Origin: an uncultured Saprospiraceae bacterium
Lineage (GTDB): Bacteria; Bacteroidota; Bacteroidia; Chitinophagales; Saprospiraceae
Assembly: GCA_938041325.1 (NCBI GenBank)
Contig: CALIAG010000339.1
Location: 1-33,267 of the forward strand
DNA: 33,267 nucleotides
Direction of reading: 5' to 3'
Below the pieces are notes generated by a model that saw only the letters and a list, made by a program, of their open reading frames with translations, was not told the origin of the DNA and ran no database searches. This document shows positions 22,290 through 27,479 of the stretch, piece by piece. The position numbers were made by a program, and so were the translations under genes. Position 1 is the first letter of the stretch; the number at the start of each line of letters is the position of its first letter.

Positions 22290-23372
22290 ATGTCTACAAC
22301 TACTGCTACTAGATTTCGACCAGGTGTACTATGGGGCGATGAAGTTACCGAACTTTTCAATTTTGCAAATGAGAATAATTTTGCAATTCCAGCTGTAAAT
22401 GTCGTTGGAACAAACTCAATTAATGCTGTTTTAGAAACTGCAAGAGCGGTTAATTCCCCAGTTATTATTCAGTTTTCAAATGGCGGAGCAAAATTTACTG
22501 CCGGAGGTGCTTTATCTAATGAAGATGAACAAGCTGCGATTCTAGGTGGAATATCTGGAGCTATGCACGTACATTCGATGGCTAAGGCCTATGGCGTAAC
22601 TGTTGTATTGCATACAGACCACTGTGCTAAAAAGTTATTGCCTTGGATTGATGGCTTAATGACAGCTGGTGAGCGTTTTTATGTTTCTCGAGGGTATCCT
22701 TTGTATTCTTCGCACATGATCGATCTTTCTGAAGAACCGATTGAGGAGAATATTGAAATCTGTGAGGAATATCTAAAGAGAATGGATAAGATCGGAATGA
22801 CACTTGAAATAGAATTGGGTGTAACTGGAGGAGAAGAAGATGGTGTGGATAACACAGATGTTGATAGTTCGAAGTTGTATACTCAGCCAGAAGAAGTCGC
22901 TTATGCATATGAGCGATTGAGTAAAATCAGTAATAAGTTCACAATTGCTGCGGCATTTGGAAATGTTCACGGAGTTTACAAACCAGGTAATGTTGAGTTG
23001 AAACCAATCATTTTGAAAAATTCTCAAGATTTTGTAAAAGAGAAATTCAAAACAGGAGAGCAACCAATAAATTTTGTTTTCCATGGAGGTTCAGGTTCTT
23101 CTCGAGAAGAAATAAGAGAGGCGATTGAGTATGGTGCAATCAAGATGAATATTGACACGGATATGCAATGGGCATTTTGGGATGGAGTAAGAAATTACTA
23201 CGAAGGAAAAAGAGATTACATGCAAGCTCAAATTGGAAATCCGGATGGTGATGACAAACCGAACAAAAAGAACTACGATCCACGAAAATGGTTGAGAGCA
23301 GCAGAAGTTTCATTTGTTGAACGTCTGAAATTGGCTTTCGAAGATTTGAATTGCATTAACAAAAATGCTTAG
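22290..23372 (+). CDS. fbaA: Class II fructose-bisphosphate aldolase
   Basis: Cleaves fructose 1,6-bisphosphate to dihydroxyacetone phosphate and glyceraldehyde 3-phosphate in glycolysis, and the reverse in gluconeogenesis; zinc-dependent, cytoplasmic. 360 residues, class IIA (FbaA) length. Motifs: AIPAVNVVGTNS near the N-terminus, VVLHTDHC with Asp110 as catalytic acid and His111 as zinc ligand, ELGVTGGEEDGVDN, FGNVHGVYKPGN with a zinc His, and VFHGGSGSS for phosphate binding. The C-terminal SFVERLKLAFEDLN is intact. Monocistronic, with its own intrinsic terminator. Confidence 0.97.
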   Translation: MSTTTATRFRPGVLWGDEVTELFNFANENNFAIPAVNVVGTNSINAVLETARAVNSPVIIQFSNGGAKFTAGGALSNEDEQAAILGGISGAMHVHSMAKAYGVTVVLHTDHCAKKLLPWIDGLMTAGERFYVSRGYPLYSSHMIDLSEEPIEENIEICEEYLKRMDKIGMTLEIELGVTGGEEDGVDNTDVDSSKLYTQPEEVAYAYERLSKISNKFTIAAAFGNVHGVYKPGNVELKPIILKNSQDFVKEKFKTGEQPINFVFHGGSGSSREEIREAIEYGAIKMNIDTDMQWAFWDGVRNYYEGKRDYMQAQIGNPDGDDKPNKKNYDPRKWLRAAEVSFVERLKLAFEDLNCINKNA

Positions 23373-24783: not shown

Positions 24784-26826
24784 TTATTTAATAATTACAG
24801 TATTTAAAGACTTTGCAATCACGTTGCGCATTTCCAATAAGTGTTTTTGAACCTTCAATAATTTCATAATTTGGTCCTCATCTTTTTCGTTCATTGCCGT
24901 TTGAATTCTTCCTTGATTCAACTCACACATTTTTATTACCTTCTTTAACTTAAATCTTTGCAAAGCTTGCATACCATCATTTGCAAAATTCTCTTCTGGC
25001 ATCGTTTGATTGCGCAAAGGCATATTGTGTATTTCTTCCCAGTTGGGGCTGTACTCAAAAGGGGAGTGGAGTACATCAATCGCAATTTGTTGAATCTCTG
25101 CGTTTTGGTGATTGGTGAAGTGACCAGGTGTTATTTCCTTTTTGTCCTTAACCAACCTGACTACTTCATTGAGAATGATTTCATATTTTTTATTGTCAAA
25201 ATCACTAAGGACTTCTTCTAAATTCATTAATAGAAATTGAGCAATAGTTTGATTTTCTTCTTTATCGAAAATTCTATTTCCAGAGCTGATTAATATTCTA
25301 ATAATATCTTTTTCTTGAAACTCATTGCTTGATTTGCTTTCTTGAGAACTGCCTTGGTTTGAAGGAGCCAAGTTGCCTTGCTCAATATTAGCGTAGGGTG
25401 TTTCACTTTCTGGAAAGTTGGACTCTTCTGAAGGAAAAGGAACGGCCTCTCCTCGAGCTATTTGGCCTTTTCTTTTAGCGAGTTGAGCTTCTCTTCTAAT
25501 TCTGTTAGCTCGTTCCTGTTTTTTCTTTTCTTCGTTTTGACTAACTGTTTTATTCGATTCTGCAATCAATAAGTTTTCATCAACTCCCATGACGTTAGAA
25601 CATTCCTTCACATATAGGGAACGTTTGATTGGATCTGGAATCTTTGCGATACTGGAAACGATGTCTTGTATTAATTCCGCTTTTTTTATTGGATCGCCTG
25701 CTGCTTCTTCTAATAGCAATTGTGTTTTAAAAAGGATAAAATCTTTTGCATTATCTGTTATATATTCTCTAAAAGCAGTGGTTCCAACTTTTTGCAAATA
25801 AGAATCAGGATCTTCTCCTTCAGGAAGAAGAACAACCCGCACATTCATATCTTGTTCCAAAACCAAATCCAATCCTCTCAATGCAGCTTTAACTCCAGCA
25901 GCATCCCCATCGTAAAGGATTTTCATGTTTTGAGAAAAACGTTTGACCAATTGAATTTGATCAACAGTCAAGGATGTTCCTGAAGAAGCAACAACATTAT
26001 CAATCCCTGCTTGGTGCAAAGAAATAACATCAGTGTAGCCTTCCACCATTATACATTCGTCAAGTTTTCGGATTCCTTTTTTAGCAAAATAAGAACCATA
26101 TAAAACCCGACTTTTATTATAAATTTCTGTTTCAGGAGAATTGATGTATTTCGGAGCTTTTACGTTTTTTTGTAAAATTCTTCCACCAAAACCAATCACT
26201 TTTCCACTCAAATTGTGGATAGCGAACATCACCCTATTGCGAAAAAAATCGCTGCCATAATTAGTGGTCAATCCCAGCTTTTTAAGCAAGTCTGCTTTGT
26301 ATCCTTTATTGACGGCATTCAGCGTGAAATTATCTTTCTTTTCAGGAGCAAATCCTAACCCGAATTTCTTAATCGTCTCTTCTCGGAATCCTCTCTCTTT
26401 AAAGTAATGAAGAGCAACGCTTTTCCCGGTATCCGTTTCGAGCATCTGCTCTTGATAATAGTCTCTAGCATATTCATTAATGATATACAAACTATCATGC
26501 AGCTGAGCTTCTTGTCTTTGTTCAGGGCTTTTTTCTACTTCAGCTATTTCAATCCCATACTTTTTAGCGAGATACTTCAAAGCTTCAGGAAAAGAATATT
26601 GTTCATGATCCATCATGAACTGGACAGAATTCCCTGCTTTTCCACAGCCAAAACATTTATAAATATTCTTGGTAGGAGATACCGTAAAAGAAGGAGTCTT
26701 TTCATTGTGAAAAGGACAATTGCCAATTAGGTTAACTCCTCTTCGTTTGAGGTTAACATAGTCACCTACCACATCTTCAACTTTGGCGGTATCAATAATT
26801 TCTTGAACTGTATTTGCTGGTATCAC
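24784..26826 (-). CDS. dnaG: DNA primase DnaG
   Basis: Synthesises RNA primers for lagging-strand replication. 680 residues. N-terminal CHC2 zinc-binding domain with Cys37, His40, Cys58 and Cys61 (CPFHNEKTPSF, CFGCGKAG). RNA-polymerase core and TOPRIM domain with the metal-binding VEGYTD and YDGDAAG motifs. The C-terminal third is variable with a Gln/Ser/Glu-rich linker (about 470-500) and a helical helicase-interaction domain. The start is a GTG at 26826; no upstream ATG is in frame, and the protein begins MIPANTVQEIIDTAKVEDVV as the family does. A -7-like box (TATATTTA on the minus strand, 26831-26838) is so close that the transcript may be leaderless. Confidence 0.97.
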   Translation of the reverse strand: MIPANTVQEIIDTAKVEDVVGDYVNLKRRGVNLIGNCPFHNEKTPSFTVSPTKNIYKCFGCGKAGNSVQFMMDHEQYSFPEALKYLAKKYGIEIAEVEKSPEQRQEAQLHDSLYIINEYARDYYQEQMLETDTGKSVALHYFKERGFREETIKKFGLGFAPEKKDNFTLNAVNKGYKADLLKKLGLTTNYGSDFFRNRVMFAIHNLSGKVIGFGGRILQKNVKAPKYINSPETEIYNKSRVLYGSYFAKKGIRKLDECIMVEGYTDVISLHQAGIDNVVASSGTSLTVDQIQLVKRFSQNMKILYDGDAAGVKAALRGLDLVLEQDMNVRVVLLPEGEDPDSYLQKVGTTAFREYITDNAKDFILFKTQLLLEEAAGDPIKKAELIQDIVSSIAKIPDPIKRSLYVKECSNVMGVDENLLIAESNKTVSQNEEKKKQERANRIRREAQLAKRKGQIARGEAVPFPSEESNFPESETPYANIEQGNLAPSNQGSSQESKSSNEFQEKDIIRILISSGNRIFDKEENQTIAQFLLMNLEEVLSDFDNKKYEIILNEVVRLVKDKKEITPGHFTNHQNAEIQQIAIDVLHSPFEYSPNWEEIHNMPLRNQTMPEENFANDGMQALQRFKLKKVIKMCELNQGRIQTAMNEKDEDQIMKLLKVQKHLLEMRNVIAKSLNTVIIK

Positions 26827-27041: not shown

Positions 27042-27169
27042 AAATTCAAATTTTAATAAAGTGTTTTGCGAAGATGAAGATGAAAAATTTGAATTTAAAG
27101 AATATAATGGGTGTTCTCATAGTGTGTGGGCTACCCCGCGATCTAATAGATTGATGGGGTAGCTTTTTT
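27042..27169 (+). ncRNA. Structured RNA unit 1 of a three-copy tandem array
   Basis: 5' stem of 12 perfect base pairs (27042-27053 with 27085-27096) and a 31-base loop; then a linker of about 33 bases that is nearly identical in all three units; then a terminator hairpin (GCTACCCC 27130-27137 with GGGGTAGC 27156-27163, inner stem CGATCT/AGATTG) and six T's. This is the most divergent copy in the 5' loop. No RNA family recognised. Confidence 0.5.
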
Positions 27170-27212
27170 CAAACTTTTAAAGAAAAGTCAAACACATTTA
27201 AATTAGTAAATC

Positions 27213-27324
27213 AATTCAAGTTATGCAGAACAGTCTGTAGAATTTGAGTTTAAAGAATATAATGGGTGTTCTCATAGTGTGTGGACTACCCCTCAATCAA
27301 ATGATTGATGGGGTAGCTTTTTTT
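27213..27324 (+). ncRNA. Structured RNA unit 2 of a three-copy tandem array
   Basis: 5' stem AATTCAAG/TTTGAGTT (27213-27220 with 27243-27250), capped by an inner hairpin TGCAGA/TCTGTA. The invariant linker follows, then a terminator hairpin (CTACCCC 27286-27292, GGGGTAG 27310-27316, inner 7-bp stem TCAATCA/TGATTGA) and seven T's. A promoter-like pair TTTA-N19-TAAATTAG (27176-27206) would start the transcript at the base of the 5' stem, giving an RNA of about 112 nt. Confidence 0.55.
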
Positions 27325-27366
27325 CTTAATTTTTCACGACTGTTAGACCTCTTAAATCAAGAAATC

Positions 27367-27479
27367 AATTCAAGTTTTGTAGAACCGACTATAGGATTTG
27401 AATTTAAAGAATATAATGGGTGTTCTCATAGTGTGTGGACTACCCCACGATCTTAACGATTGTTGGGGTAGCTTTTTTT
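27367..27479 (+). ncRNA. Structured RNA unit 3 of a three-copy tandem array
   Basis: 5' stem AATTCAAG/TTTGAATT (27367-27374 with 27397-27404), inner hairpin TGTAG/CTATA in which one C-G pair of unit 2 is replaced by T-A. The invariant linker follows, then a terminator hairpin (CTACCCC 27440-27446, GGGGTAG 27465-27471, inner CGATC/GATTG) and seven T's. Confidence 0.55.

Follow-up and report, generated by a model that had tools for sequence, protein, structure and literature searches.

A multicopy small RNA family of Saprospiraceae with a near-invariant unpaired segment directly before an intrinsic terminator

Beside dnaG in an uncultured Saprospiraceae bacterium, three similar intergenic units follow one another at a regular spacing. 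Do these units belong to a family of small RNAs (sRNAs), which part of them is held constant, and what might that part do? We addressed these questions in the window (the whole stretch of 33,267 nucleotides analysed here) and in homologous loci of related genomes and of viral contigs.

Three-unit array in the window

The three units span positions 27042-27479 with a repeat period of 154-155. Tandem Repeats Finder reported a single tandem array in the window (27086-27479, period 154, 85% matches), which is intergenic, with dnaG on the minus strand on one side and the gene for a secreted type IX sorting domain protein (plus strand) on the other. An earlier note, made from the sequence alone, had described each unit as a 5′ hairpin, an invariant linker and a terminator, and repeat finding, alignment and folding all confirmed this layout. 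A block of 36 bases (TTTAAAGAATATAATGGGTGTTCTCATAGTGTGTGG) is identical in aligned units 1, 2, and 3. The MFE z of the units was -5.2, -6.4, and -5.7, respectively, and none of 200 shuffles equalled any unit. The features are as follows (evidence in brackets).

24784..26826, minus strand: dnaG (DNA primase), divergent neighbour, outside the RNA (Pfam Zn_ribbon_DnaG, DNAG_N, Toprim, DnaB_bind)
27042..27096, plus strand: unit 1, 5′ stem-loop with 13 pairs and a 29-base loop in the centroid fold (folding)
27109..27126, plus strand: unit 1, invariant core GGGTGTTCTCATAGTGTG, putative effector segment (unit alignment, pattern searches, dnaG-anchored sample)
27128..27169, plus strand: unit 1, intrinsic terminator, hairpin and T run (folding, covariation)
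27213..27250, plus strand: unit 2, 5′ stem-loop (folding)
27264..27281, plus strand: unit 2, invariant core (alignment, pattern search)
27283..27324, plus strand: unit 2, intrinsic terminator (folding, covariation)
27367..27404, plus strand: unit 3, 5′ stem-loop, U-A in place of the C-G of unit 2 (folding, alignment)
27418..27435, plus strand: unit 3, invariant core (alignment, pattern search)
27437..27479, plus strand: unit 3, intrinsic terminator (folding, covariation)

For the 5′ stem of unit 1, which had been given as 12 perfect pairs, folding yields 13. Two paired exchanges pointed out earlier were likewise present in the folds: the change from C-G to U-A in the inner hairpin between units 2 and 3, and the inner terminator pair, which is T-A in unit 1 but A-T in unit 2. 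By themselves, the three units hold little covariation evidence; this evidence comes from homologues, and it concerns the terminator.

Distribution of the family

A BLAST search with unit 2 gave matches in 17 of the 61 genomes searched (own genome counted), and an exact-pattern scan of contigs returned at least 115 stretches; those listed came nearly all from Saprospiraceae, Lewinella, Neolewinella or Phaeodactylibacter. When up to one mismatch was allowed, the core was found in 40 of 299 genomes of the order, all in the family of the window, while the reversed pattern had no matches. When a gap was allowed, 59 of 150 sampled Saprospiraceae genomes were positive and the reversed control was almost zero. 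Positive genomes carry one to five copies, often in tandem (two to five are listed in 17 of the 59; the window genome has three). Among 395 genomes of the class, real copies occurred in two only, both Saprospiraceae. Three other class-level matches contained gaps of 7-8 bases in the core and are presumed to be due to chance. One locus with the sRNA (L109) lies on a contig labelled Robiginitomaculum sp. (Alphaproteobacteria), probably owing to a binning error.

All copies share one plan: the 5′ part varies, an A-rich linker leads to GGGTGTTCTCATAGTGTG, and the terminator starts within a few bases of it. The hallmark of the family is the near-constant unpaired segment GGGUGUUCUCAUAGUGUG followed directly by the terminator, and 119 of 134 non-redundant copies passed the terminator filter. 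A covariance model of the family (R1) scored the three window units at 78-81 bits; applied to 395 genomes of the phylum, it retrieved family members and one weak match of 29 bits, which is the level of chance cores.

The earlier note had recognised no known RNA family. In agreement, no Rfam family reached the gathering score in the window and 20 homologous loci, and none appeared at E ≤ 0.5 in four loci. A limited literature search (open-licence PMC articles only) found no description of this RNA. The units belong to a real, lineage-restricted sRNA family of a known kind, apparently undescribed so far. The homologues support the earlier view that these are structured small RNAs of a new family, present in several copies and sharing a single-stranded region that does not change.

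Structure and covariation

Covariation was tested in 72 homologous copies (alignment A2). Compensatory changes were found in each of the seven terminator pairs modelled. The structure as a whole had 58 double-change cells versus 15.8 in shuffles, and the signal was lost on sliding the pairing. In sliding windows, the mean fold z was -4.2 at the terminator and -1.06 in the 5′ region, while the core gave -0.08 to -0.53.

The 5′ hairpin stands out clearly in the window and in its relatives without being a defining trait of the family: it was present in 21% of copies compared with 9% of shuffles at equal score, a modest, roughly twofold enrichment. A short, weak hairpin is also predicted inside the linker and core; its inner pairs are invariant, its outer pairs are broken in many homologues, and only one compensatory cell was seen, so this helix is not conserved. 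Homologues were indeed found within Saprospiraceae, and their terminator pairs covary. The argument of the earlier note for selection on RNA structure stands for the terminator, but what the family conserves most strictly is its unpaired core sequence rather than its stems.

Invariance and variants of the core

As pattern searches fix the core themselves, its invariance was re-tested in a sample that was not selected on the core. DnaG was searched in 120 genomes of the family to locate dnaG and extract the sequence upstream of it. Among 107 such regions, 22 carried the core exactly, 8 with one mismatch, and 5 with two to five mismatches, whereas 72 were at background (six or more mismatches). 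Since intermediate cases are few (5 of 107), the core does not drift: beside dnaG it is either near-intact or missing. Some genomes without the core beside dnaG hold copies elsewhere. DnaG identity across the family goes down to about 40-60%, while the core hardly drifts; the partner of the core should therefore be important and itself constrained.

In several of the intermediate dnaG-upstream cases, a short A/U insertion separates GGTGTTCTCA from TAGTGTG. Two to five extra bases, mostly A/T, were noted between GGTGTTCTCA and AGTGTG in L242, L261, L273, and G1085:C196:6203-6222. Judged from the sequences, these insertion variants suggest two recognised half-elements in the core. A different core variant, GGGTGTTCTAATAGTGTG, was observed in the last (third) paralogue of several related arrays (L069, L110, L138, L144, and L173). 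The terminator type in these arrays is specific to the position of the unit, which would fit divergence within an ancestral three-unit array prior to the separation of these species.

The invariant segment might also be thought to encode a small peptide, with ATGGGTGTTCTCATAGTGTGT read as MGVLIVC and an ATG standing before the GGT in the window units and many copies. This ATG is missing in many other copies (positions -1 and -2 vary), third codon positions are invariant, the insertions of 2-5 bases in the core break the frame, and the terminator begins directly after the core. We rate a peptide gene as the least probable of all readings considered here.

Genomic context and promoter

In 83 of 122 loci, dnaG is the neighbour of the sRNA, nearly always in divergent orientation. 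The gene downstream of the sRNA differs between relatives and is mostly convergent, so the sRNA appears to be an independent gene and probably acts in trans. The same observation bears on a cis-acting leader or attenuator, whose terminator would control the downstream gene. Attenuators do share the plan of a conserved segment plus terminator, but apart from the changing and often convergent downstream gene, up to five terminated units occur in series and there is no ligand-like fold, which makes a leader very unlikely.

The motif GTCTWTA was found upstream 21 times (1.0 expected). In loci of the Neolewinella type and in others, it lies upstream at -47 to -72, counted from the core; it is promoter-like and is distinct from the usual TAnnTTTG box of Bacteroidota. 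The Bacteroidota -7 form TATATTTG was seen upstream 8 times versus 0.4 expected. The units are probably transcribed. As for the wider neighbourhood, a gene for a class II fructose-bisphosphate aldolase lies near dnaG in the window (22290-23372), and a homologue of it is also located near the sRNA in three other loci (L068, L105, and L123).

Phage copies

The exact 17-mer of the core was present in seven viral contigs. In four of them, representing three lineages, it is directly followed by a strong terminator, and these copies scored 34.6-57.7 bits with R1; two viral contigs whose core is put down to chance and lacks a terminator scored about 25 bits. The complete copies are the following.

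L351:5716-5792: complete sRNA copy in a myophage, own terminator
L355:11928-12004: complete sRNA copy in the same myophage as L351, own terminator
L356:4293-4359: complete sRNA copy in a Mu-like phage, own terminator
L353:2118-2186: complete sRNA copy in a 5 kb contig, own terminator

L351 and L355 represent one myophage (with baseplate J, gp25, tail collar, and VapE helicase) from two metagenomes and are identical over the 1000 bases compared. The proteins of the myophage and of the Mu-like phage are closest to those of phages of Bacteroidota. L353, which carries a DNA methylase gene, is not certain to be viral. The phage RNAs share the plan of the host copies and little else with them. Gapped, one-mismatch, and 16-mer searches of viral sequences gave no further matches judged real, and BLAST against plasmids and phages gave no match. 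Complementarity to the core within the phage loci did not exceed chance, and self-regulation of the phage by pairing is thus unlikely.

Phages often integrate in RNA genes, and the shared segment could then be an attachment site, with the phage copies as attP. However, the phage copies have their own terminator and AU-rich linker, and L351 and L356 also a 5′ hairpin at the right distance. In addition, the Mu-like phage among the carriers has no need of such a site, and no integrase was among the L351 proteins tested. An attachment site appears even less likely than a leader.

Target searches

Sites nearly perfectly antisense to the core (14-15 of 15 matches) were searched in 12 whole genomes, and only the sRNA itself and scattered unrelated matches were found. 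The evaluation of pairing with start regions covered the neighbours of the sRNA and about one fifth to one quarter of two genomes. No signal was obtained for the dnaG start region (mean z +0.30 over 22 loci), and none globally for 797 gene start regions in the loci around the sRNA (mean z +0.16). Two Neolewinella segments of 1.1 Mb with 361 orthologue pairs had no shared site of at least 8. SusC start regions gave no signal either (mean z +0.23 compared with +0.43 for all genes, from only 12 SusC-like genes in the two Neolewinella segments, i.e. in another genus). With E. coli rRNA, the core paired no better than shuffled cores did. As the coverage of start regions is partial, a few imperfectly paired targets may have been missed. 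Because these searches found no target, the role of a target-binding regulator is one that we infer.

A raised ratio of sites in start regions over those in coding sequences disappeared against controls that held the start-codon complement fixed, and was discarded. Separately, the lpxA leader of four related loci (L167, L173, L087, and L069) keeps a GAGAACACC / GAGAACAC(C) site that complements the core in its 5′ half.

Partner of the core

Alternatively, the core may be a protein-binding site, and the RNAs may titrate or escort an RNA-binding protein, e.g. an RRM_1 protein of the RbpB type. The titration of CsrA by CsrB serves as the model for such an action, and RRM proteins commonly bind single-stranded RNA that is GU-rich. 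The entire segment is invariant, yet antisense sites were not found; its halves GGUGUUCUCA and AGUGUG tolerate A/U between them, as a two-site protein ligand could; and multicopy arrays and phage copies fit titration. Furthermore, Hfq was detected in none of 10 Saprospiraceae genomes (but in five control genomes), and RRM_1 proteins were present in nine of the ten. On the other hand, sampled genomes in which no core was found (e.g. G218, G067, and G093) have RRM proteins as well, and these proteins hence do not track the core. Protein binding is possible, though in our judgement less likely than not. Somewhat more doubtful is its elaboration, in which the core would be recognised in two parts (GGUGUUCUCA ... 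AGUGUG) by a protein rather than by antisense pairing, and infecting phages would use their copies to gain control of this host regulator or to titrate it.

Most likely, the units represent a new multicopy family of trans-acting sRNAs with the core as effector, and the family is a strong candidate for a general regulator. Base pairing of the core with one or more mRNAs is on the whole probable and slightly favoured over protein binding, although the few members that tolerate short A/U insertions in the core speak against one continuous duplex. In the mechanism that we propose, the array would give rise to three small RNAs, each about 110-130 nt long and terminated independently of the others. 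The 17-18 nt unpaired segment GGGUGUUCUCAUAGUGUG, placed behind an A/U-rich linker (and in the window also a 5′ hairpin) and directly before the terminator hairpin, would be the effector and work in trans, pairing with its mRNA or mRNAs like the seeds of the multicopy sRNAs FopS and Qrr. An RRM protein perhaps helps pairing, a role considered because Hfq was not found. Tandem duplication would raise the dose and leave room for divergence of the paralogues.

Comparison with known systems

RNA regulation in Bacteroidota beyond Bacteroides has been little studied. The family offers a testable sRNA system without detected Hfq for Saprospiraceae, including cultured species of Neolewinella, Lewinella, and Phaeodactylibacter, and the phage-borne copies offer a way into the study of RNA-level conflict of phages with their Bacteroidota hosts.

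Qrr of Vibrio and LhrC of Listeria each exist as several almost identical copies that have a terminator and share an invariant effector segment. They are work-alikes of the Saprospiraceae RNA, unrelated to it in sequence and lineage; Qrr works with Hfq, whereas Hfq was not found in the 10 Saprospiraceae genomes. Both are listed as paralogous sRNAs (PMC11697453). Among Bacteroides sRNAs, BTnc049 (RF04179) gave a sub-threshold full-length alignment to unit 2, covering the 5′ hairpin, the AAGAAUA linker, and the terminator (22.6 bits versus a gathering score of 81.9, E = 0.21), but the invariant core is missing from its consensus. GibS (BTnc035), a single sRNA with two 5′ seeds (PMC7366714), is a different RNA and, as far as tested, unrelated in sequence.

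The closest analogue and nearest worked-out precedent is FopS of Bacteroides (PMC11697453), a paralogous sRNA family with 14 members in B. thetaiotaomicron, a single-stranded seed and a terminator, an RRM protein partner (RbpB), and a copy reported in a Caudovirales phage; its known target class is SusC mRNAs, and it is reported to have been deposited in Rfam (PMC11697453). Rfam searches gave no match at the gathering score in the window or 20 loci, and none at E ≤ 0.5 in four loci. FopS and the Saprospiraceae RNA have in common that they are multicopy RNAs of Bacteroidota with a single-stranded conserved segment and an intrinsic terminator, with a phage copy, and in organisms bearing RRM proteins. 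In FopS, the seed is at the 5′ end of the RNA and the genes are spread over the genome, whereas in the Saprospiraceae RNA, the core follows a 5′ region and lies directly against the terminator, and the genes form tandem arrays beside dnaG. Within a known kind of sRNA, the Saprospiraceae family shows unusually strict conservation of one unpaired segment and has phage-borne copies.
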